From assembly GCA_003170295.1 (NCBI GenBank), contig PNAJ01000138.1, forward strand, positions 1-64,000: 64,000 nt of DNA. Direction: 5' to 3'. Origin of the DNA: Bryobacterales bacterium (GTDB lineage Bacteria > Acidobacteriota > Terriglobia > Bryobacterales > Bryobacteraceae). Below the pieces are notes generated by a model that saw nothing but the letters and a program-made list of their open reading frames with translations, made no database searches and was not told where the DNA came from. The position numbers and the translations under genes are program-made. Every line of letters starts with the position of its first letter. Position 1 is the stretch's first letter. Below, in pieces: positions 27,211-39,650 of this stretch.

Positions 27211-29030
27211 TAGGGGTTCACAATAGGATCTTCCAAGAACTGCATGTCATGCAACCTCTGGTAGATTCCTCCGCCAGCGACGAGTTCCTCATGCGTGCCG
27301 ATTTCCGTGATTTTTCCGCGATCGAGCACGACGATCTTGTCGGCGCGGCGGATGGTGGAAAGGCGATGCGCGATGACGATGACGGTGCGATGCTCCATCA
27401 GATTTTGCAGCGCGGTTTGGACCAGACGCTCGGATTCGGTGTCGAGATGCGAAGTGGCTTCGTCGAGGATGAGGATGGGCGCGTCCTTGAGCAGAGCGCG
27501 TGCGATGGCAAGGCGCTGACGCTGGCCGCCCGAGAGTTTCTGGCCGCGTTCGCCGATCATGGTGTCGTAACCTTCGGGCATGCGGAGGATGAATTCTTCC
27601 GCGAGAGCGTTGCGGGCGGCATCCTGAATCTGTTCGCGCGTTGCGTCGGGACGACCGTAGCCGATATTGTTGGCGACGGTGTCGTTAAACAGGAACGTAT
27701 CCTGCGCGACGATGCTGATTTTGTCTCGGAGTGAATCGAGGCGCAGGTCGCGAATATCCTTGCCGTCGACGCGAATCGAGCCGGAGCAGACGTCGTAAAA
27801 TCGCGGCACGAGATTCGCGAGCGTGGTTTTTCCGGAGCCGCTGGGGCCGACCAGCGCGGCAATTTCTCCGCGCTTCACATCGAGGCGGATCCGATCGAGG
27901 GAAAAACCGTCGGGAGCGCTGGGGTAATGGAAGCTGACGCCATCGAACAGAATCGACTTTTCGAAACGGGCGAGTCTGATGGCGTTCGGCTTTTCCTTGA
28001 TCTGCTGTTCACGATCGAGATATTCGAAGACGCGCTGCGATGCGCCGAGGGCCTGCTGAAAAATATTGTGGATGCCGGTGAGGCGCTTGACGGGCTCGTA
28101 GAGCATGAGCAGAGCGAAGACGAAGCTGATGAAATCGCCAGGCGTCATCGCGCCATGTTTGATTTGTATGCGGGCGTAGGCGACGAGTCCGACGATGGTG
28201 ATCGCGCCGAAAAACTCAATGAGAGGCGACGCGATGGCTTGCTGCGCGACGTAGCGAAGATTCGAGCGGCGGAGGCGTTGGACGCGGTCACGGAAACGGT
28301 TCGACTCGATCTCCTCTGCTCCAAAAGATTTTACGACCTGCTGGCCGCTGAGCGTTTCCTGCAAAACCTGATTCAGCTCGGCGGCGTCATCCTGCGCGCG
28401 GCGCGTGGTTTTACGGATTCGCCGGCCGAGACGAACGGTGGGGACGAGGACGAGGGGAAGGACGGTGAGGCTCCAGAGCGCGAGTTTCCAGTCGCTTTGA
28501 AGAACCAGCGTGAGCAGCGCGATGGCGGTGAAACTCTGGCGCAGAAAATCGGCGAGGATGTGTGAGAGCGCGACCTGAATTTTTTCGAGATCGTTCATGA
28601 TGGACGACATGACGCGCGCGGTGGAGTTGTCCTCGAAAAAATGCGCGTCCTGATGGACGACGCGGTCGAAGACGGTTTGGCGCAGATCGGTGACGGCGGA
28701 AAAGCCGACGTAGTTGATGAGGTAGTTGCCGAAATAATCGCAGATGCCGCGGAAGAAAAACACGGTGAGAATCGCGGTGGCGACCATGCTCCAGATGGTG
28801 TGGATGTTGTGGGGCATGAGGTCGTTCAAATAAATGGTGTGATGGAAGGCGGTGTAAAGTGCGACGGGCGGCTCGAAATCCTGCGGGTTGAGGACGCGAT
28901 CGAGGATCGGCTTGATGAGCAGCACGGTGATGGCTTGCGCGGCGCCGACGATGGCCATTGCAACGACGGAGACGAGGAGATGAGGAACGTAGGGGCGGGA
29001 GTAACGGAGGAGGCGGGTCAGTTCCTTCAT
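27210..29030 (-). CDS. MsbA-like lipid/multidrug ABC exporter (fused TMD-NBD)
   Basis: A 606-aa half-transporter. Six membrane helices fill residues 1-320. The nucleotide-binding domain has Walker A LVGPSGSGKTTLANL, the Q-loop IVAQDTFLF, the signature LSGGQRQRLAIARAL, Walker B ILILDEATSHLD and the H-loop VIAHRLSTI. The start was set at 29030 (MKELTRLL), where ATGA overlaps the end of the heptosyltransferase-like gene; the longer open frame runs into that gene. Next to a GT9 glycosyltransferase, export of lipid A or a related glycolipid across the inner membrane is likely. Confidence 0.93.
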   Translation of the reverse strand: MKELTRLLRYSRPYVPHLLVSVVAMAIVGAAQAITVLLIKPILDRVLNPQDFEPPVALYTAFHHTIYLNDLMPHNIHTIWSMVATAILTVFFFRGICDYFGNYLINYVGFSAVTDLRQTVFDRVVHQDAHFFEDNSTARVMSSIMNDLEKIQVALSHILADFLRQSFTAIALLTLVLQSDWKLALWSLTVLPLVLVPTVRLGRRIRKTTRRAQDDAAELNQVLQETLSGQQVVKSFGAEEIESNRFRDRVQRLRRSNLRYVAQQAIASPLIEFFGAITIVGLVAYARIQIKHGAMTPGDFISFVFALLMLYEPVKRLTGIHNIFQQALGASQRVFEYLDREQQIKEKPNAIRLARFEKSILFDGVSFHYPSAPDGFSLDRIRLDVKRGEIAALVGPSGSGKTTLANLVPRFYDVCSGSIRVDGKDIRDLRLDSLRDKISIVAQDTFLFNDTVANNIGYGRPDATREQIQDAARNALAEEFILRMPEGYDTMIGERGQKLSGGQRQRLAIARALLKDAPILILDEATSHLDTESERLVQTALQNLMEHRTVIVIAHRLSTIRRADKIVVLDRGKITEIGTHEELVAGGGIYQRLHDMQFLEDPIVNP

Positions 29031-29980
29031 GGCCTCCGCTCCCTGCGGTCGCGGCTCGGTAGAGCACCGGTTGTCGGGAGAGCACTGTTGGGTAGAGCAG
29101 CCGGGTGAAACAGGTTCAGGGATTCGATGGCGGCGGTTACCCGATGGGCGGAGATGCCGGCGATGGCGGCGGGAGACGTGAGCACTTTCGATTCGGTGCG
29201 CCAAGGGGCCCAGGTGACTGAGTCGGACTGCCCGAAGAGCACGACGACGGGGACGCCGAAGGCGGCGGCGATATGCGCCGGTCCACTATCGTTGCCGATA
29301 AAAAGAGATGCGCCAGCGATGAGGTTTTTCGTTACGGCGAGGGATTCGCGGGAGGTTTGGAAATTTTCGAACGGCGTGAGGTCGTCGGTAGGACCGGCGA
29401 GGAAGACGGGCTCGAGGTTGAGATGGTGCGCGACTTCGATGAAGCGTTCGGCGGGCCAGGTTTTATCGGGCCTCGCGGCGAAGGGATGAATCACGGCGTA
29501 GGGACGGCGACTGGGAGGCGGATCGGCAACAAAGAGCCTCGCGCGGGGGATCTCCTGCTGGGGCACGCCGAGCCAAAACATCGCGGAAGCTAAATGTTCG
29601 GCGGTATGGACGCGCCGGGAGACTCCGAGAATTTCTTGCGCGGTGGGGATTTTATGGGAATAGACGAAGCGGTAACGATGGTGCGCGAAGCCCACGCGGA
29701 ATTTCGCGCGAGACAGCGCGGTCAGGATCATGCTGCGCGTGCCGCCGTGAAGATTGAGCACGAGGTCGGCGTGGGTCATGGAATCGCGGGTCTCGTCGAT
29801 ATCGGGGTTATCGGCGAAAATTTCGGCGAAGCGTGGTTCGACGATGATGCTGAGCTTGAGATCGGGGCGATGGCCCTTGAGGAGAGAGAGGGCCGGCGTC
29901 GAGAGAACGCAGTCACCGAGGGATCGCAGACGGATCACGGCGATCCGCGAGCCGGACGGCAGACGGTCAAGCAAGTTCAC
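29027..29980 (-). CDS. Glycosyltransferase family 9 (heptosyltransferase-like)
   Basis: A 317-aa GT9 enzyme of the LPS-core heptosyltransferase type. It has RIAVIRLRSLGDCVLSTPAL at the N-terminus, VIHPFAARPDKTWPAERF in the middle, and the donor site LIAGASLFIGNDSGPAHIAAAFGVPVVVLFG. The last ~25 residues are not family sequence: their DNA contains a 25-bp interspersed repeat (29043-29067). It lies 2 bases after the Trm112-like gene and overlaps the MsbA-like gene, fitting an outer-membrane lipid-building operon. Confidence 0.92.
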   Translation of the reverse strand: MNLLDRLPSGSRIAVIRLRSLGDCVLSTPALSLLKGHRPDLKLSIIVEPRFAEIFADNPDIDETRDSMTHADLVLNLHGGTRSMILTALSRAKFRVGFAHHRYRFVYSHKIPTAQEILGVSRRVHTAEHLASAMFWLGVPQQEIPRARLFVADPPPSRRPYAVIHPFAARPDKTWPAERFIEVAHHLNLEPVFLAGPTDDLTPFENFQTSRESLAVTKNLIAGASLFIGNDSGPAHIAAAFGVPVVVLFGQSDSVTWAPWRTESKVLTSPAAIAGISAHRVTAAIESLNLFHPAALPNSALPTTGALPSRDRRERRP

Positions 29981-29982
29981 TT

Positions 29983-30153
29983 TTACTCTTCAATGCGGGC
30001 TTCGTCGACGAGCATCACCGGGATGTCGTCGCGAATGGGGTAGACCCGCTTGCATTCGACGCATTTCAGGCCGTTTTCGTCCTGTTTTAGCTCCACCGGC
30101 GCTTTGCAGAGCGGGCAGACAAGTATTTCCAGCAGATCTTTGCTGATGGCCAT
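29983..30153 (-). CDS. Trm112-family small zinc-ribbon-like protein
   Basis: A 56-aa protein with the Trm112/YcaR pattern: KDLLEILVCPLCKAPVEL, CVECKRVYPIRDDIPVML and an acidic end. CxxC and CxxC pairs are present. Bacterial members sit in LPS gene clusters. The ATG at 30153 has a GAGGA site before it; the longer frame to 30174 is unlikely. First gene of the minus-strand cluster. Confidence 0.9.
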   Translation of the reverse strand: MAISKDLLEILVCPLCKAPVELKQDENGLKCVECKRVYPIRDDIPVMLVDEARIEE

Positions 30154-30180
30154 AGTAATCCTCAAGTGTAGCAAATACGG

Positions 30181-31548
30181 CTATTCGGGCAGTGGTTTGC
30201 CCATGGTTTCCGGCGCCCAGGGGAGCACGGCGAGGCCGAGCAGAAATACAGAACACATGGTGATGCCGGCGTAGCGCATCGGCTCATCCATGCCGGCGTA
30301 TACGCTGCTGGTTAGCTTGGCGAGGGCGAAGGGGCCGACGGCGGCGATCAATCGGCCGACGTTATAACAGAACGACGTGCCGGTGGAGCGGAGGCGGGTG
30401 GGGAAGAGCTCGGGGAAATAAATCGCGAAGCCGCCGAATAGCGATAGCTGGCAGAATCCCATGAGAGGAGTCATCCAGAAAATGTCGCTGAAGTTTTGCA
30501 ATTTCCAGAAGGTGAAGGCGGTGGCGCAGAGAGCGGCGATGAATCCAGCGGCGAACGCTTTTCGACGGCCGACGCGCGCAGTGAAATAAGTGAACGCGTA
30601 GATTCCCCAGAACGAGCCGAAATTTTGCAGCAGGGAATTGATGCCGGTCCACAGCGTTTTCTGCGAGGCGATCACGTTTTCCGGCATGCCTTGCGCGCGA
30701 AACGTTTTGTCGAGCACGGAGCTGAGCAGGTCCGGCGTGAAGAATCCGATGCCCCACAATCCGACCACGCCGGAGAATGCGAGGGTCATGCCGACCAGCG
30801 TGCTGCGGCGCCATTTGGAGGAGAAGAGCTCGCTGACAGAACCGAGTTTGGCATGTCGATCCTTAGCCTTCTGCCAGCCTTCCGGTTCCTTAAGGCGGCG
30901 CATGATGACGAGCACCAGAAGGGCGGGGAGGGTACCGATGATGAACATCCATCGCCAGGGGCTGGAGATTGTTTCGGCGGCTTGGAGGCGTCCGAGAAAA
31001 ATTCCGATCAGCGCGGCGGTGACGTTGCCGACGGTGGAGGAGGCTTGCAAGAGGCCGAGCGCGTAGGGCCGCGCGCGATTCGGCATCACTTCGGCGACGA
31101 GCGCGACGCCGACGGCGAACTCGCCGCCGACGCCGAGGCCGGTGAGAAATCGGTAGGCCGAAAAATCCCATACGCCGGTCGAGAGAACGCTGAGGCCGGT
31201 GAACGCGGAGTAGCTGAGGATGCTGACCAGCATGGTTTTCACGCGGCCGATGCGGTCGCCCAGGATGCCGAAGAGGACTCCGCCGACGGCCCATCCGATC
31301 ATGAAAATCGAGGTGGAGTAACCGGCGTAGGTCGCGACGAGGCCGGCGGCATTGGGATCGCCTGCGTGGACGTGCAGTAATTCCAGCATCGCGGGGCGGC
31401 GGGCCAGCGTGAACAACTGCTGGTCCATGGTGTCGAACAGCCAGCCGAGCGAGGCGACGAGAAGGACGAACCAATGGTAGCGAGTGAGTTCCTTATACCA
31501 GGCGCCGGTGAACGGATTGGTGGAAGCGCCGGGTTCAACGAGGGACAT
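30181..31548 (-). CDS. MFS transporter (metabolite:H+ symporter type)
   Basis: A 455-aa major-facilitator protein with 12 helices. After helix 2 it has the MFS motif GDRIGRVKTML, and later YRFLTGLGVGGEFAVGVALVAEV and YFPELFPTRLRSTGTSFCYNVGR. This matches the aromatic-acid/sialate-type H+ symporters. The substrate is probably an organic acid. A separate transcription unit that ends 27 bases before the Trm112 start. Confidence 0.9.
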   Translation of the reverse strand: MSLVEPGASTNPFTGAWYKELTRYHWFVLLVASLGWLFDTMDQQLFTLARRPAMLELLHVHAGDPNAAGLVATYAGYSTSIFMIGWAVGGVLFGILGDRIGRVKTMLVSILSYSAFTGLSVLSTGVWDFSAYRFLTGLGVGGEFAVGVALVAEVMPNRARPYALGLLQASSTVGNVTAALIGIFLGRLQAAETISSPWRWMFIIGTLPALLVLVIMRRLKEPEGWQKAKDRHAKLGSVSELFSSKWRRSTLVGMTLAFSGVVGLWGIGFFTPDLLSSVLDKTFRAQGMPENVIASQKTLWTGINSLLQNFGSFWGIYAFTYFTARVGRRKAFAAGFIAALCATAFTFWKLQNFSDIFWMTPLMGFCQLSLFGGFAIYFPELFPTRLRSTGTSFCYNVGRLIAAVGPFALAKLTSSVYAGMDEPMRYAGITMCSVFLLGLAVLPWAPETMGKPLPE

Positions 31549-31579
31549 TGACGGTTATTTTCGCACGGACGGGAGCGCT

Positions 31580-32807
<1,228 letters not shown>

Positions 32808-32818
<11 letters not shown>

Positions 32819-33284
32819 TGTCAAGCAGGAGTTCCATGAGAACGGCGGATTCTTCAGGGTAGTACCCGGGGCATGTTCGGACCTTCCTAAAACCAAATTC
32901 CCGGTTCAACTTAATCATGCGCGCGTTGCTCCTTCGGCACGTCGTAATCACTCGATTGAATCCATGATAGCGGGCATAGGCGATCTCCCAGGATTTGAGC
33001 AGCGCGCCGAAGCCTTGATTCTGGAATTTGGGGAGAATGCCGGTGGTGCTGATATAGAGCGAGCCTTTGCGGCGAGGAGCAATGTCGTTGTTGTCGTGAA
33101 AATCGACGTGTTTTTCGAAGGCGCAGCAGCCGACTTTGGTATTGCCCACGATGAGCCAATAGGATTCGCAAGTCGCCCAGTACACGGTGTCGAAGCGATC
33201 GGCCGCTGGAAATATTTTGCGGTCGAAGGCAAGGAGCGCGCGGACTTCCTTGGGTAGGATCGCTCTTCTGAACTCGGTTTTCAT
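32808..33284 (-). CDS. GNAT-family N-acetyltransferase
   Basis: A 158-aa single-domain acetyltransferase. The acetyl-CoA loop is LYISTTGILPKFQNQGFGALLKSWEI, followed by the SNARMIKLNREFGFRKV region with the usual Asn. The start at 33284 (MKTEF) is used because a hairpin repeat lies just upstream. It overlaps serA by 11 bases, so the two may be translated together. Substrate unknown. Confidence 0.85.
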
Positions 33285-33286
33285 TT

Positions 33287-33363
33287 GGCAGGGCATGGCC
33301 CTGCCCCACACAATTGTAGATCAACAACATGAATGCTCCCGTGGCGCAGGGCCGTGCCCTGCG
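33287..33363. repeat. Pair of REP-like hairpins (BIME-like)
   Basis: GGCAGGGC-ATG-GCCCTGCC (33287-33305) and CGCAGGGC-CGT-GCCCTGCG (33345-33363) share the stem GCAGGGC/GCCCTGC and lie 39 bases apart. They form the 5' leader of the minus-strand acetyltransferase gene. Confidence 0.6.
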
Positions 33364-33404
33364 AAAATTGCCTCGTCGGAGGAATCTGTGGGTGATGGCG
33401 AGCG

Positions 33405-33490
33405 TCAGCGAGCCGCCTCTGTGAGGAACCCCGGAGCTTTCTGCAGGTTGAATCGAAGGACCTATGCTGATCTTCGCCTCCGTGATAAAG
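33405..33490 (-). pseudogene. 3' piece of a gene split by the peroxiredoxin segment
   Basis: On the minus strand these ~28 codons read LYHGGEDQHRSFDSTCRKL, then after an apparent one-base shift GFLTEAAR and a stop. The RSFD(S/A)TCRKL motif is the conserved end of a family of ~90-100 aa uncharacterised proteins, from my memory of such sequences. The matching upstream part ends at 34269 with YGGPF. Joining 34269 to 33490 gives an unbroken in-frame GGPF-LYHGG. The piece is decayed (frameshift). Confidence 0.5.
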
Positions 33491-33582
33491 CGTGGATTCC
33501 CCAGGCGGGCACCGCGATGGCCACGAATCGCACTCTCGTTTGCCGCACAGTAGCAACCGGACGGCGGGTGTTAAGCTTGGGC

Positions 33583-34131
33583 GTGCCTGAAGCTCCCATC
33601 GCGGGCGAACTTGCGCGGGAGTTCGAACTGCCGGACTCGACGCGGGTGTTGCGGCGCCTGACGGGACTGATCTCGCACGGCCGCCTGGTGCTGGTGTTTT
33701 ATCGCGGGAACTGGTGACCTTTCTGTCTCCGCCAGTTGGCGGACTATCGAGAACACTATTCGGAGATCCGGCTGGCAGGCGCGAGCCTGGTGGCTGTGTC
33801 GGTGGATCCTCCCGAGGTATCGGAGGCCTTGCGAACCAGCCTGTCTTTGCCTTTTCCGATTTTGTGCGACACGGAGCATCGCGTCGTCAGGGATTGGGAT
33901 ATTTACAACTCACAGGAGAAGGGCGGCATCGCAAAACCGGCCGTCTTCGTTATCGACTCCGACCGCGTGGTGCGTTTCGCTTCGGTGGATGGCGTTGCGA
34001 AGCGCGTGCCGGCGGCGGAGATCGTCTCTTTGTTGCGTAGTGCTGAAAAGGCGCGGCCCGTTCGGCGCAGAGTTTACATCCCGCTGTTCTCCGATTGGAT
34101 CAAGGGGATTCGGAATATTATTCGGCGGTAG
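33583..34131 (+). CDS. Peroxiredoxin (AhpC/TSA family) with in-frame TGA at the peroxidatic cysteine: predicted selenoprotein
   Basis: Read through the TGA at 33715-33717, this is an unbroken 182-aa peroxiredoxin of the thiol peroxidase/BCP-like group. The N-terminus reads AGELAREFELPDST, then LVLVFYRGNW-U-PFCLRQLADYREHY, where homologues have RGxWCPxC. VAVSVDPPEVSEAL, LPFPILCDTEHRVVRDW and GGIAKPAVFVIDSDRVVRFASVDG follow. The TGA replaces exactly the peroxidatic Cys (residue 45), and the resolving-type Cys of the UxxC motif is kept (C48). A SECIS-like hairpin follows the TGA. No other frame damage exists on either side. The GTG at 33583 is my start choice; GTG 33568 and ATG 33517 are alternatives. 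A nonsense mutation is the competing explanation. No sel genes are in the window. Confidence 0.8.
33728..33743 (+). promoter_or_regulatory. Bacterial SECIS-like hairpin
   Basis: TCCGCC-AGTT-GGCGGA forms a perfect 6-bp stem with an AGUU tetraloop. The loop begins 17 bases after the TGA and has G at its second position. These values satisfy the general bacterial SECIS description: a stem-loop just 3' of UGA and a G among the first two loop bases. A weaker lower stem (TTCT 33721-33724 with AGAA 33749-33752) is possible. SelB binding is inferred. Confidence 0.65.
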
Positions 34132-34235
34132 GGGGATTCCGATGAAGGCGATGCATTGCACGCGTTCACACCGGCGATAGTATGCGGTATAGTCGTCTTG
34201 CCGGACGCTGAAGTTTCATCGAACGGCGAACTTGT

Positions 34236-34526
34236 TTAACTGTTTGTGTCAGCCGAGCAGGGCATTCTAAACGGCCCGCCGTATTCGATCATTCCGAGCA
34301 GGACATTTTCGACGGGGCGCTTTCTGAGAGGCGGATCGTTGTGGAGGTCGCGGATGAACTCCCCGCCCAGTGCCCAAACGTTATCGACGTGTTTCTGAAT
34401 CGTCTTCGGCGACAACTCCGACGCCGCGAGGGATTCGAGGAACGGCCGATGCGTGGACGAAAGTTCTTGAGCGATGGCGCGGCCAATCCCCCGGCTCGCG
34501 CCGGTGACGAGTGCGACCGGCTTCAC
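34236..34526 (-). pseudogene. Chimeric remnant: SDR N-terminus fused to 5' piece of the split gene
   Basis: The first ~23 codons are the start of a short-chain dehydrogenase (ALVTGASRGIGRAIAQEL, the TGxxxGIG cofactor motif). The sequence then jumps to FLESLAASELSPKTIQKHVD, NVWALGGEFIRDLHNDP and LLGMIEYGGPF, which is the N-terminal part of the same uncharacterised family whose end is at 33405-33490. After GGPF at 34269 only unrelated codons follow to the stop. So both ends are recombination joints: no SDR body and no C-terminal family motif in place. Unlikely to make a working protein. Confidence 0.6.
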
Positions 34527-34643
34527 TTTTTCAGTTTAGGGGATGGTGCGCTTTAGGTCGATAAGTTGGACCGAATTCCCTCGGCAATTGACGTCCCGCT
34601 GATTTGCCCTTACACTGAGAGCGGGTTCCGATCGAACTTGGTG

Positions 34644-34928
34644 ATGACGATGAAGATAGCCCCTGCTCAAGAGCGAACCGCACGCGTGGGACAGCGCCGC
34701 CAGGTTGTGATCCCGCGGGATATCCTCGAAACCCTGAAGCTTGAAGCAGGGGATTTTGTGGCGTTTACCGAAAAGCGCGACGGCGTTTTGATCAAACCGA
34801 AACGCATGGTCGATCCGGACGACACGTTGACGCCCGGGGAAGCGAAGATCGTACGGCGCGGCTTGGCTCAGCTCAAACGGGGCGAGTCGAAGCCCTGGCG
34901 CGCCGTTAAAAATGCGCTATCGCTTTGA
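34644..34928 (+). CDS. AbrB/MazE-type antitoxin
   Basis: A 94-aa protein with a SpoVT/AbrB swapped-hairpin DNA-binding domain (ARVGQRRQVVIPRDILETLKLEAGDFVAF) and a C-terminal toxin-binding tail (TPGEAKIVRRGLAQLKRGES). It overlaps the RelE/ParE-type gene by 17 bases, the normal antitoxin-toxin order. The start is at the ATG at 34644 or 34650. Autoregulation of the pair is expected from the family. Confidence 0.85.
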   Translation: MTMKIAPAQERTARVGQRRQVVIPRDILETLKLEAGDFVAFTEKRDGVLIKPKRMVDPDDTLTPGEAKIVRRGLAQLKRGESKPWRAVKNALSL

Positions 34929-35184
34929 GCTTTCTTCTGAAGCCCAAAGGCATCTTTCCCGGTTCCCCCGCGAGGTGCAGGAGCGGCTGGCACGCGGCAT
35001 CGACGATCTTGAATCCAAAGACGACTCGCAGTGGAGCAATGTGAAGGCATTGCAAGGCGCTCAGTGGAAGGGGCTACTGCGGAAGAAAGTCGGCGGCTAT
35101 CGTATCATCTTCCAGAAATTCCCGAGTCGTGGCGTGGCGGAAATTGCCGCCATTCTTATCAGGTCAAAGAAGACTTATGGGTGA
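34912..35184 (+). CDS. RelE/ParE-superfamily toxin
   Basis: A 90-aa toxin: YRFELSSEAQRHLSRFPREVQERL at the N-terminus, the core with LQGAQWKGLLRKKVGGYRIIFQ (conserved Arg in GxYRIIF) and a final strand IAAILIRSKKTYG. RelE-type members cut ribosome-bound mRNA. This is the most intact toxin in the accessory stretch. It is translationally coupled to the preceding antitoxin. Confidence 0.87.
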   Translation: MRYRFELSSEAQRHLSRFPREVQERLARGIDDLESKDDSQWSNVKALQGAQWKGLLRKKVGGYRIIFQKFPSRGVAEIAAILIRSKKTYG

Positions 35185-35208
35185 ACCTTGAGCGTGAGCT
35201 GAGACGTG

Positions 35209-35520
35209 ATGAAAATGCCGCCCTTCAAGACTGAGACACAAGAGGCGAAATGTTGGGCGAAAAATCAGAACCTGATCGCAGACCGCTTAGAGCAAGCCAA
35301 GGCTGCGGGCAGACTCGGCAAAGGAACCGTGGCGCGAGTTGCCGGCGAGCGGGCCGGCCAGGCCGGAGCGTCGCCAACGATCACAATCCGGCTGGCGGAG
35401 GAGGACCTCGCGCGAGCCAGAACGCTCGCCGCCGAGAAGGGGTTGCGGTACCAGACGTACCTCAAAATGCTGCTGCACCAAGCTCTGAACTCGGAGGAGA
35501 AAAGGGCGGGTCGGCGTTAA
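35209..35520 (+). CDS. CopG/BrnA-like ribbon-helix-helix antitoxin, no partner seen
   Basis: A 103-aa protein. The C-terminal half has a ribbon-helix-helix pattern, ITIRLAEEDLARARTLAAEKG then LRYQTYLKMLLHQAL, as in CopG/BrnA-type antitoxins. The N-terminus has the usual MPPFKTETQEAKCWAKN start of such proteins. No toxin gene is on either side in a coupled position (the RelE gene upstream has its own antitoxin). The ATG at 35209 is preferred. Confidence 0.75.
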   Translation: MKMPPFKTETQEAKCWAKNQNLIADRLEQAKAAGRLGKGTVARVAGERAGQAGASPTITIRLAEEDLARARTLAAEKGLRYQTYLKMLLHQALNSEEKRAGRR

Positions 35521-35544
35521 ACACACACCGCACGCAACGATGGT

Positions 35545-35976
35545 CGGTCTCGTCCGTCCCTCGAGGTCCCTCAGGGCCCGTCCTCTCTAAAAGGACGGCT
35601 CCAAACTTGCTATTGAACCTCTGGAGTTAAGGTGATAGGATTATTCCTAACATGAAACGCCTGCTGCTCCTGCTGGCCGCTGTTCTGGCGCTGCTGTACA
35701 CACCGGCGCTTGAAGCAAAAGGAGGACACTCGGCTGGCCGTGTTACTTCTTCTCGTTCGGCAAAGTGCAAGAAACTTAAAAAGGCCAAGGCTCCTAAGGC
35801 CTCGAAAAAGTCCAACGTTCCCGGCAGTAATGATGGGACGTACGTGCGGGGGAGCGGCTCAAGCCACAAAGGCGGCAAGTACAAGAACTCGAATACTGGC
35901 GATAACTATCGGAACCGTCAGGCTGGCGTTCCCAAGTAACCGGGGGGACCGGGAGGAACCGGGACGGACGAGACCG
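35545..35976. repeat. Inverted repeats flanking the small secreted-protein gene
   Basis: CGGTCTCGTCCGTCCC at 35545-35560 and its exact reverse complement at 35961-35976 bracket a 400-bp segment that holds one gene. Both copies have a G/C-rich neighbour with GGTCCC elements. They may be ends of a small mobile cassette or two copies of a common interspersed repeat. Confidence 0.55.
35652..35939 (+). CDS. Small secreted basic protein
   Basis: A 95-aa protein with a clear signal peptide (RLLLLLAAVLALLYTPALEA) and a mature part rich in Lys, Ser and Gly: SAKCKKLKKAKAPKAS, then GSGSSHKGGKYKNSNTGDNY. The SSHKGGxYxNxxTxxxY ending is known from uncharacterised secreted proteins in many bacteria. Charge and composition suggest surface or nucleic-acid interaction, but there is no evidence. 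It sits between 16-bp inverted repeats. Confidence 0.72.
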   Translation: MKRLLLLLAAVLALLYTPALEAKGGHSAGRVTSSRSAKCKKLKKAKAPKASKKSNVPGSNDGTYVRGSGSSHKGGKYKNSNTGDNYRNRQAGVPK

Positions 35977-36138
35977 TACCGTGCTGCCGTGGACCGCCGA
36001 ATGATCACAAGCGAAGGTCAGGGACGGGGATCTCGTCTGTCCATTTGGGCTCTCTGGCTTCTCTCCCAATCAGCGGTTGGTTTCAACAGGCGCACGAACA
36101 ACTTGCGCCCAGGCGCGGGCGTGGCTTAACTTGAAGGT

Positions 36139-36393
36139 ATGACCGTGGAACTCAAACCGGAAACCGAGCGACTGGTGCAGGAAGAAATCCGGCGCGGCCA
36201 TTTTCACTCGGTCGATGAAGTGATTGTGCAGGGCGTCTATGCTTTGCGCGAGAAATCCAACTTGGCGCAAGCCACGGTAGCCTCGCCAAGGCCCCGCAAA
36301 AAGCTGTACGACCTTCTCACGCAGCCCCCGTTTGCAGGTTCTGAACTAAAGCTGGAAAGACTGAAGGATTATCCCAGGCCCGTCGATTTGTGA
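36139..36393 (+). CDS. Ribbon-helix-helix antitoxin (VapB/ParD-like)
   Basis: An 84-aa protein with an N-terminal RHH segment (MTVELKPETERLVQEEIRRG, FHSVDEVIVQGVYALRE) and a toxin-binding tail (AGSELKLERLKDYPRPVDL). A following GTG overlaps its stop (GTGA) and opens a VapC-type PIN gene that breaks off after a few codons. So the antitoxin is intact and the toxin is lost. Confidence 0.8.
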   Translation: MTVELKPETERLVQEEIRRGHFHSVDEVIVQGVYALREKSNLAQATVASPRPRKKLYDLLTQPPFAGSELKLERLKDYPRPVDL

Positions 36394-36491
36394 GCGGCTT
36401 TCTGCTCGATACCAACGTCCTGTCCGAATTTGCAGGCACGGGAAAGCTAGGGGTTTCCCTGAGAATTTCAGCCAACTCCGGCAACCACTGA
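36390..36491 (+). pseudogene. vapC: VapC toxin, 5' fragment only
   Basis: Starting at a GTG that overlaps the antitoxin stop, the frame reads SGFLLDTNVLSEF, the first strand of a PIN domain with its catalytic Asp, then diverges and stops after 33 codons. A full toxin would need about 100 more residues. This is a deletion remnant. Confidence 0.75.
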
Positions 36492-36509
36492 GAGTACAAT
36501 GGAGATGCT

Positions 36510-36701
36510 GTGCCTACAGTCCACACTCCGAAATTGCAGCAGCCGAAAACCGATCCCCACCTCCAGTCCGCCGGCGAGCGGACCAGGGCTGCGGCGGAAG
36601 AACTTGAGCGGCTTGGCATTGCCGACCGCGAGGGCAAACGCATACGCACGGAGCTGCCCAGCGACATGCGGGAAGGCACGGACCGCGATTTCGGCGGCTA
36701 G
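36510..36701 (+). CDS. Putative antitoxin-like partner of zeta-toxin-type kinase
   Basis: A 63-aa protein (AEELERLGIADREGKRIRTELPSDM, REGTDRDFGG). Small proteins with this acidic end (ADMxEGSxRDFGG) are often found directly before zeta-toxin-like P-loop kinases, as here with a 11-base gap. The start is a GTG at 36510. It lacks a recognisable DNA-binding domain. The function as antitoxin is inferred from context. Confidence 0.6.
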   Translation: MPTVHTPKLQQPKTDPHLQSAGERTRAAAEELERLGIADREGKRIRTELPSDMREGTDRDFGG

Positions 36702-36712
36702 ATGCCGCCAGG

Positions 36713-37283
36713 ATGTTTATCGTAGCCGGCCCTCCGGGGAGCGGTAAGTCTACAACTTTTCCCGTCTCAGGCTTTGGCGTCGATTTCTTCAACGCAGACG
36801 ACCGCGCGGCAGCCCTGCATCAGGGATCGTATGTAGGTATCCAACGGGCTATTCGCGAACGGGTGAATGATCTCTTCGAGGCTTTCGTCTTCGATCATAT
36901 CGAACGTCGTTCGAGCTGTGCGTTTCGAAACTTCGCTTCGTAGTGGTATCACTTTCGAGCAGGCGGGCCTGGCGAGACGAGCCGGTTTTACCGTGGAAAT
37001 GCGGTATTTGGGTCTGATAACGTTCGAGATGCACCTGGAGCGAATCAAGATGCGGGCAGATAGGCGCGGCCATAGCGCTCCTGAGTCCGTTCTCAGACGC
37101 ATCTACGACGCAAGCATCGAGAATCTTCCCCGCGCGATCCGCGAAATGGATTTCATCCACATCTACGACAACAGCCAATGGGGCACGGCTCCCAAGTTGC
37201 TCTTCCAGGCAGAGAGCGGTGAAACGATCTACCGAGCGGACGAATTCCCAGCTTGGCTAGTGAAAGCACTGGAAAGGCTCTAG
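36713..37283 (+). pseudogene. Zeta-toxin-like P-loop kinase, frameshifted
   Basis: The 5' frame has Walker A IVAGPPGSGKSTTF at residues 3-16, then FFNADDRAAALHQGSY and FEAFVFDHIERRSSCAF before it fails at a stop (36941-36943). The continuing family sequence FETSLRSGITFEQA, GLARRAGFTVEMRYLGL and IENLPRAIREMDFIHIYDNS is in another frame, up to a stop at 37283. Dropping one base near 36927-36932 (the TTTCGAAA stretch) joins both into one ~190-aa protein typical of zeta/UDP-GlcNAc-kinase-type toxins. Either a mutation or programmed slippage; mutation is more likely. Confidence 0.75.
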
Positions 37284-37306
37284 CATCGCCGCTGATTAGC
37301 AGACTG

Positions 37307-38167
37307 CTAGACCGCTTTGCGCTGCCGCACGGAATCGAGCAGCATCCCGGCGATTTGCTTGCCATGCTCGAAGGCTTCTTCGTAAGCCGCTTTGCGCTCA
37401 TCCCGAGTGAATCCGTAGCCGAGGCGGTAGAGCCTTTCAAGCGATAGCCCGACGGCGAACGTTGCCGCGTAAGCGATGCCTGCTTTCGGAATTAATCCGC
37501 CGCCGAACGGCACTTTGCCGACTAGCTCCCGAGCCAGCGCGCGCCATCCGAACGCTCCCGCGATGATCGAGGCTACTTGCGATTTCTGCTCCCGATACCC
37601 GATAGGACGGTCGCTGACGGCGGCCAATTGGAACGCCATGCGGATCTGGTTCATCGTGAGAAACGCCGTGTCGGAGCTGAATTCGCCCACGGCCCAGGGA
37701 ATGGACGCGAGGCTCGGCACAATATCGGGGATCGCGGTGGCGAGGCTGAACAGCGCATTTTCTTTCGCGATGGCGCGGATGATCTTATGCGCGGCGGGTT
37801 TGCGGAAGGGATAAAGATGGCGGGCCAGGGGCAGCATCAGGTCTTCCCGCTTCTTGAGGATGCGGCGGATGCAATCGTCCGGAGCGTCGGGATCGAACGA
37901 GAAACTCTTGCTCGGCCGCAGCAGAGCGGAATCGTAAACCTCGAGGTCGCATCCCAACGCCGGACCGCGGACCAGCAGGCGAACGGCCTCCGCACGCCGT
38001 TCCATCGAAAAATGAGGGGGCGCGAAAAACGTCTCCATGCGCCCTAGCGCTTCGGGCGAGGCGGCGACCAGCGAAATTCTCACGACCCGGTCCGCGTCTT
38101 CCCGCACAGCCCCTGGGTTCAGGCTGGTGAGCGCTCCTTTAATTTGGTGGAAGACGGCGATGGCCAT
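37307..38167 (-). CDS. Membrane-associated protein with DUF697-like C-terminal region
   Basis: A 286-aa protein of unknown function. The middle has helical segments (KIIRAIAKENALFSLATAIPD, SSDTAFLTMNQIRMAFQLAAV), and the C-terminal part PFGGGLIPKAGIAYAATFAVGLSLERLYRLG resembles the two-helix core of DUF697/YcjF-type proteins. There is no GTPase motif. The start overlaps the end of the upstream nuclease-like gene by 29 bases, so they are expressed together. Confidence 0.7.
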   Translation of the reverse strand: MAIAVFHQIKGALTSLNPGAVREDADRVVRISLVAASPEALGRMETFFAPPHFSMERRAEAVRLLVRGPALGCDLEVYDSALLRPSKSFSFDPDAPDDCIRRILKKREDLMLPLARHLYPFRKPAAHKIIRAIAKENALFSLATAIPDIVPSLASIPWAVGEFSSDTAFLTMNQIRMAFQLAAVSDRPIGYREQKSQVASIIAGAFGWRALARELVGKVPFGGGLIPKAGIAYAATFAVGLSLERLYRLGYGFTRDERKAAYEEAFEHGKQIAGMLLDSVRQRKAV

Positions 38168-39650
38168 GGTTTCGGAACATCACACGGAGTTCCTTCCTCC
38201 ATTCTAACCCCACGCCGGTCCTTTCCACAGGTACTTGAGCGGAAAAGTACTCTAATATAGTCTCATTCGAGGGATGGTACTCGACCGATGGCGCGACCAG
38301 CAGCAACCTCGGCGCAACGCAAGCGAGCGCGATTCCCGGAAAATATCCGCGCGCGGAAAACTCTCCGCGATCCAGATGCCACTTCACGCGCATCCAGTAA
38401 TCGAGCGCCTGTAACGGCAGATGGATGTCCTGATCGGCCTTCAGTTCGATCACGGCGAGCCTGCCGTCGCGGTCGACGCCGAGCAGATCGATGATGCCGC
38501 GCTCACCAGCCGCGAACTGCGGCACCTGTCCATAAAGAGGATGCGGATAAATCATCGCGTCTAGCGCTTCGACGCTCGCCCGCACCTGCGATTCAAGCCA
38601 CGCTTCCGGATGGCGCTTATAAATAGGATTGGCGCGGTCGATCGACTGGAAATTGCGGAGCCGCGCGATCTCCCGGGCGATGCGCTCGGCTTCGATCAAG
38701 TGCGCCTCACTGCCGGCGGCGTGTTTGCGGTCGAGCCCGTAGAGCAGGTCGTCGCCGATCACGCGTGCGAACTCCAGTCCACGAACTGCCAGGCTCACCG
38801 AGCCGTCGGGCCGGTCGCGCCGCTCGACGCCGTCGATCGCGGTCAGACGGTCCATCGTTTCCGCGAGACGCGGCGAAACCTGCGGGCGCATCGCCACGGG
38901 AAGGCGCGTGTCAAAGTTTTGATAATCGCGCGGGTCGACTTGCGCTTCGTTATTGGCCTGATGCACGAAGACCATGTATTGCGCGGCGGTCGTGCTCAAA
39001 TGGCGGATGCGATGACACGTCGTGGTCTCGTGTCCCGCCGGGAGAAAAATCGCCAGCGTGTCGATGGTGACCTTTGGTTCGCGATGGCGCAGATGGTCGA
39101 GCCAGATGAGCCCAAAGCTGAGCGAGTCGCTGGGCGAGAGCGAATCCTCCGACGCGCCGATGGCCGCGATACCAGTCGACCCACGTCGCAGCAGCGCTCG
39201 CGGAAAGCTCGGAGACAAGCTGTGATGCAGGTCGGGCTCCGTGCTCAATTCGGCGACACGGTATCCGGCGAATTGCCGGTGGAGCGAGCGCCGAAACCGT
39301 TCGCGATACTTCAGCCGTGCGCCGCGCCGGTCCGCATCGCGATTCGAAGGATCGGCAAGATCGAGCAGCGTCAACGTCCCGGCAAGCGCACCAAAACGCT
39401 CAATCTCAATCTCCAGCCGTCCGCGACGTTCGCTGCGGATGCCGCGGACCCGACGGACAAGGTTCTTGGTATCGCTCCAGCATTCGATGGTTACCACGAG
39501 GCCGCGTGTAGTGAGCGAAAATGACGCGGGGCTGACAGTTAGGGGATCGTCGCCAGCCTCAAATAGCACCGGCTGCCGGCTGGATTGGACGAATCGCTCA
39601 ATGGCGGCGTGGGCGGCCAGAGGGTCGGATTTGGCGCGGGCGGGGTGCAA
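38139..39650 (-). CDS. Large protein with PD-(D/E)xK nuclease-like C-terminal domain
   Basis: A 503-aa protein. Near residues 395-420 it has the PD-(D/E)xK core GIIDLLGVDRDGRLAVIELKADQ (Asp, then Glu-Leu-Lys), preceded by a helix (SQVRASVEALDAMIYPHPL). The N-terminal ~300 residues are unassigned, Arg-rich and probably a nucleic-acid or substrate-binding region. Nuclease-like proteins of this plan (NucS/DUF91 style) act on DNA, but the function here is unproven. It is coupled to the DUF697-like gene downstream. Confidence 0.7.
   Translation of the reverse strand: MHPARAKSDPLAAHAAIERFVQSSRQPVLFEAGDDPLTVSPASFSLTTRGLVVTIECWSDTKNLVRRVRGIRSERRGRLEIEIERFGALAGTLTLLDLADPSNRDADRRGARLKYRERFRRSLHRQFAGYRVAELSTEPDLHHSLSPSFPRALLRRGSTGIAAIGASEDSLSPSDSLSFGLIWLDHLRHREPKVTIDTLAIFLPAGHETTTCHRIRHLSTTAAQYMVFVHQANNEAQVDPRDYQNFDTRLPVAMRPQVSPRLAETMDRLTAIDGVERRDRPDGSVSLAVRGLEFARVIGDDLLYGLDRKHAAGSEAHLIEAERIAREIARLRNFQSIDRANPIYKRHPEAWLESQVRASVEALDAMIYPHPLYGQVPQFAAGERGIIDLLGVDRDGRLAVIELKADQDIHLPLQALDYWMRVKWHLDRGEFSARGYFPGIALACVAPRLLLVAPSVEYHPSNETILEYFSAQVPVERTGVGLEWRKELRVMFRNHGHRRLPPN

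Follow-up and report, generated by a model that had tools for sequence, protein, structure and literature searches.

A conserved in-frame UGA very probably encodes selenocysteine in a peroxiredoxin-fold UxxC protein of a Bryobacterales bacterium

The window, a 64,000-nucleotide stretch of DNA from a Bryobacterales bacterium, carries a single reading frame of 182 residues plus a final stop, in which the sole internal stop is a TGA at codon 45. The translation around this codon reads FYRGNW-U-PFCLRQL, and the AhpC-TSA domain (PF00578) matches residues 8-132, spanning the TGA, at 92.5 bits against a Pfam cut-off of 26. The GTG start aligns with the ATG of two homologues (L026 and L027), and PIAGEL follows four residues further on. 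Because reading stopped at the UGA, the two halves of the gene appear as separate ORFs in the ORF listing. Annotation that halts at UGA splits such genes, and therefore a class of redox enzymes from soil bacteria may be mis-annotated. Coordinates within the window are collected in Table 1.

Table 1. Positions of the probable selenoprotein gene and its features in the window, with the evidence for each.
Feature	Position	Strand	Evidence
Probable selenoprotein gene, 182 aa, AhpC-TSA (Prx) fold, UxxC	33583..34131	+	translation, Pfam, homologue alignment, predicted model, dN/dS
In-frame TGA, codon 45, very probably read as selenocysteine; Prx catalytic Thr/Ser column	33715..33717	+	translation, conservation, profile alignments
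SECIS-type hairpin TCCGCC-AGTT-GGCGGA	33728..33743	+	synonymous entropy, pairing conservation, covariation test
Arg41 codon; Prx catalytic Pro column	33703..33705	+	profile alignments, invariance
Cys48 codon; peroxidatic Cys column; expected Sec45 partner	33724..33726	+	profile alignments, invariance
Pro119 codon; Prx catalytic Arg column; cis-Pro-like	33937..33939	+	profile alignments, invariance
C-terminal tail, residues 156-182, low model confidence, predicted helix 170-180	34048..34128	+	predicted model, invariance alignment

A search at E ≤ 1e-15 returned matches in 23 of 151 genomes, the host included. Close homologues in eight other genomes (46-75% identity as aligned) each have one TGA at the same codon. 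Scanning named genome contigs yielded 37 loci, the best 24 of which (L086-L109; at least 144 bits, acidobacterial taxa by name) have TGA in the codon 45 column without exception; in the remaining 13 (at most 82 bits), this column holds Thr in seven, Ser in one, TGA in three and Cys in two. Once nine identical proteins had been removed, 24 non-identical sequences were left, the window's among them, and all 24 have TGA at codon 45. The named-contig scan included the pattern WC[PA][FM]CLRQ, one of two used, which fits the Cys form alone; no Cys member of the subfamily was returned among its 37 loci, because the sole locus carrying this string, L114, encodes a distant protein (24% identity). When 396 genomes drawn evenly across the phylum were searched, with at most eight candidates scored per genome, matches above 190 bits were found in three (G354, G266 and the host), all with TGA. 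Among the best 30 loci of this phylum scan, a sample biased to top scores, the residue 45 column holds TGA in 22, including the window's own, Cys in seven and Ser in one. The subfamily is thus seen here in Acidobacteriota alone and in Sec form alone, and a subfamily for which no Cys form has turned up provides a test of why some enzymes keep Sec.

Beyond the TGA, comparisons with the window give dN of 0.15-0.60 and, where estimable, dS of 0.72-3.56. Substitutions there remain biased to the third codon position, and for the comparison with L086 the values are 0.15 and 0.72. Since dN lies well below dS, the downstream half has been selected as protein in that frame. The gene therefore shows what marks a bacterial selenoprotein, an in-frame UGA conserved in homologues with coding continued past it.

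We used profile alignments to 2ywn, 2cx3 and 5epf to place the TGA within the active site. Residue 45 lies on the Thr/Ser of the PxxxTxxC motif, and Cys48 lies on the peroxidatic Cys of TxxC. Arg41 occupies the column of the catalytic Pro of peroxiredoxins, and Pro119 falls on the catalytic Arg in 2ywn and 2cx3. All four residues (R41, residue 45, C48 and P119) are invariant in the 24 non-identical sequences. Across 63 matched stretches, the residue 45 column holds Thr/Ser in 13, Cys in 12 and TGA in 38. Of the 13 Thr/Ser stretches, 10 carry the triad Pro, and 9 of the 12 with a letter in the Arg column carry Arg; among the 50 Cys/TGA stretches, Arg fills the Pro column in 49 and Pro fills the Arg column in 41 of the 43 with a letter. 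A peroxiredoxin proper has Pro, Thr and Arg together with Cys or Sec at the peroxidatic position; the window protein has Arg41, Sec45 and Pro119 in the first three places and Cys48 in the last.

The sequence-only reading had put the TGA at the peroxidatic Cys, which would make Sec45 itself the peroxidatic residue of a Sec peroxiredoxin. Membership of the AhpC-TSA family and the peroxiredoxin fold agree with that assignment, and attack on peroxide by a selenolate at position 45 is conceivable in principle. However, residue 45 is three residues short of the peroxidatic column, and the remaining features of the triad (Pro, Thr and Arg) are all replaced. We therefore reject the peroxidatic placement and regard a Sec peroxiredoxin of this kind as unlikely.

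In an AlphaFold model of the protein (pLDDT 84.9, pTM 0.79), residues 156-169 and 177-182 have low confidence and a helix is predicted at 170-180. The model's best fold matches are BcpB and Bcp4, with AhpE close behind, and the best PDB matches by fold and by sequence are peroxiredoxins. Taken with the active-site columns, these matches indicate a peroxiredoxin fold with thioredoxin-like active-site residues, and the site looks like a thioredoxin-type UxxC placed on that fold.

Just downstream of the TGA, TCCGCC (33728-33733) and GGCGGA (33738-33743) form a perfect 6-bp stem around the loop AGTT (33734-33737). The loop begins with the 17th base past the TGA and has G as its second base; the E. 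coli fdhF SECIS likewise requires G and U in the loop. Of 64 conserved codon columns tested, those of codons 50-53 alone have zero synonymous entropy, and these lie inside the hairpin. The frozen codons are CGC, CAG, TTG and, where the residue is Ala, GCG, and residue 49 ranks next. All 24 sequences retain the AGTT loop and the five core pairs of the stem, and 22 retain all six, with G-U alternatives at three of the pairs; the five core pairs survive in 4.3% of synonymous shuffles made for the window's peptide. A covariation test found no pair of the helix with compensatory double changes, and the covariation score was reached by 409 of 500 shuffles, so this control fails to set the helix apart. 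Folding energy is no strong argument for the hairpin either, because the proportion of synonymous shuffles that fold as stably is 7.6%, 5.2%, 12.3% and 24.5% for the four members tested, the first value being that of the window. When 55 bases from the TGA onward are folded, the hairpin belongs to the lowest-energy structure in six of the first nine members, including the window, and three prefer another fold. Scanned against Rfam at gathering scores, the window gave no matches. The core pairs, the loop and the synonymous freeze, with no covariation, mark this hairpin immediately downstream of the UGA as SECIS-type, and the 24-sequence set is a clean start for an acidobacterial SECIS model. Two loci of another subfamily (L115 and L117; FUTYCHGQL) have ACGGCC-AGTT-GGCCGT after the UGA, with the same AGTT loop.

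Three features had been proposed from the letters of the window: one TGA-interrupted frame, a UxxC protein, and a SECIS-type hairpin just past the TGA. The translation gives exactly that frame, U45-P-F-C48 is present in every non-identical sequence, and the hairpin's stem, position and loop G are as described. The acidobacterial names of the relatives likewise fit an acidobacterial host.

A search of the host genome for selA, selB, selC and selD recovered three of the four: selA (461.9 bits), selD (362.5 bits) and selC, the tRNA-Sec (64.9 bits; cut-off 47), which ARAGORN calls as tRNA-SeC(tca). The fourth, selB, was not found in this 82.9%-complete assembly by an NCBIfam model, the SelB wing domain or a same-genus SelB query. 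The same-genus query led to six places, on contigs C90, C130, C20, C91, C168 and C103; judged by eye, we take those on C90 and C130 to resemble CysNC/CysN and that on C20, where the contig ends, to resemble the start of EF-Tu. Matches to tRNA-Sec over the cut-off were obtained in nine of nine tested genomes that carry the gene, that of G067 (48.4 bits) being no better than the second-best matches of other genomes. In a set of 61 genomes, selA (E ≤ 1e-60) is present in 44, selB over the cut-off in 40 and both in 39. The genomes with selA and no selB over the cut-off are the host (G000), G025, G028, G034 and G093, the last of which has two sub-cut-off selB pieces. A same-genus genome, G021 (89% complete), has selB over the cut-off and no selA match at E ≤ 1e-60.

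The missing selB could mean that this gene was lost in the host species and that the window gene is a relic of a selenoprotein family. The Sec trait is indeed patchy in the genus, with selA in 7 of 23 same-genus genomes, the host included. Yet selB accompanies selA in all but five of the selA genomes and in all six other same-genus carriers. Those five assemblies are 64-96% complete and split into 168-610 contigs, and the window gene is under purifying selection. We consider loss of selB very unlikely, and a gap in the incomplete assembly is the simplest reading. The sequence-only reading had also proposed that the UGA is read as selenocysteine, and the conserved TGA and hairpin, the selection downstream and the presence of selA, selD and tRNA-Sec strongly support this. 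The gene very probably makes a selenium-containing redox protein into which Sec would be inserted at this codon.

The host genome has 32 AhpC-TSA matches, four of which contain one TGA: the window gene, a partial copy on contig C153, C168:9853-10227 and C94:75925-76254. The partial copy (C153, ~90756-91154; L065:5757-6154) is a 399-bp near-copy (98.7%) of window positions 33490-33887 near a contig end. Its frame departs from the gene after about residue 101-105 and enters unrelated sequence, and it is a partial duplication or an assembly artefact. A nonsense mutation, sequencing error or pseudogene, to which the one in-frame stop and this truncated near-copy might point, is rejected as having a negligible chance of being correct, because the same codon is TGA in every non-identical sequence and dN is below dS past it. 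The locus on C168 (L067) is a second selenoprotein candidate, a peroxiredoxin of the TxxU type (FTGGU) that retains the triad Pro and Arg. That on C94 (L083) is a third, with the motif WASWUGC, which recalls the name of the NCBIfam 'ResA-like WAxxUGC motif-containing protein'. Relatives have further groups of UxxC Prx-like selenoproteins (L034/L036/L050; L041/L042/L047; L035/L040/L044/L046; L049), some with extra domains or N-terminal extensions, and L049 holds two such genes in tandem. No conserved operon was found when window ORFs of at least 70 aa from 28583-39131 were compared by blastp (E 1e-12) with the ORFs of 30 homologous loci: matches were limited to the gene region itself, in a comparison that left out L092 and L095 (identical proteins) and included eight loci with just ~1.5 kb of flank.

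We conclude with good confidence that the window gene encodes a selenoprotein with a peroxiredoxin fold and a thioredoxin-like UxxC site, most likely a stand-alone thiol:disulfide oxidoreductase. Counted against this explanation are the missing selB, the lack of covariation, the ordinary folding energy, the other fold preferred by three of nine members and the peroxiredoxin identity of the best PDB matches, which leaves some probability to a peroxidase role. SelB with Sec-tRNA(Sec) would recognise the hairpin that closely follows the UGA, and position 45 would receive selenocysteine. Sec45 would most likely be the attacking nucleophile and pair with Cys48 through a Se-S bond, with Pro119 in what would be the place of the thioredoxin cis-Pro. 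The enzyme would probably exchange thiols and disulfides by itself, perhaps with some peroxide reduction, and may be recycled by thioredoxin or a similar donor. A more specific proposal, to which we give about an even chance, is that the gene represents an Acidobacteriota-specific subfamily of the peroxiredoxin fold that exists in Sec form only. Its site would have been rebuilt by changes of Thr to Sec, Pro to Arg and Arg to Pro, a helix-forming C-terminal tail would have been added, and its AGUU-loop SECIS would be nearly frozen at the nucleotide level. Such a subfamily may be one branch of a large UxxC Prx-like expansion in the phylum.

Several known systems resemble the window protein in part. 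Sec peroxiredoxins (Prx, TxxU) share the fold and an in-frame UGA near the active site, but they have Sec in place of the peroxidatic Cys and retain Thr, whereas the window protein has Sec in the Thr column and retains Cys48. The SelL-related redox proteins of NF040769 are the best NCBIfam match for three of four members tested; however, the window protein's 41.1 bits are far below the curated cut-off of 120, and no NCBIfam model passed its cut-off for any of the four. ResA/TlpA-type thiol-disulfide oxidoreductases share a CxxC-type motif, a ResA model scores 36.4 bits with the window protein, and ResA chains appear in the PDB sequence search, but none is among the 50 best fold matches, which are peroxiredoxins. 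The published selenoprotein family 'Prx-like thiol:disulfide oxidoreductase' (reference WP_010940744.1) combines AhpC-TSA with UxxC or UxxU. The window protein has this Pfam family and UxxC in common with it, a likeness at the level of family and motif, and a thioredoxin-type UxxC site on a peroxiredoxin fold fits that family. The 'Prx-like 1' group of an ocean survey (pfam00578, UxxC) is given there with 2,740 Cys and 225 Sec members (PMC2398784), whereas no Cys form of the window subfamily was returned here. For the phylum, the available text of a 2006 study lists Acidobacteria with four selenoproteins of three families (PMC1794560), and that of deep-Sep reports a test on one acidobacterial genome with three known selenoprotein genes (PMC12013277). 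No description of the acidobacterial UxxC subfamily was found in the open PMC literature, largely at the level of abstracts. The kind of protein is known from other bacteria; what is new is an acidobacterial subfamily seen here in Sec form alone.
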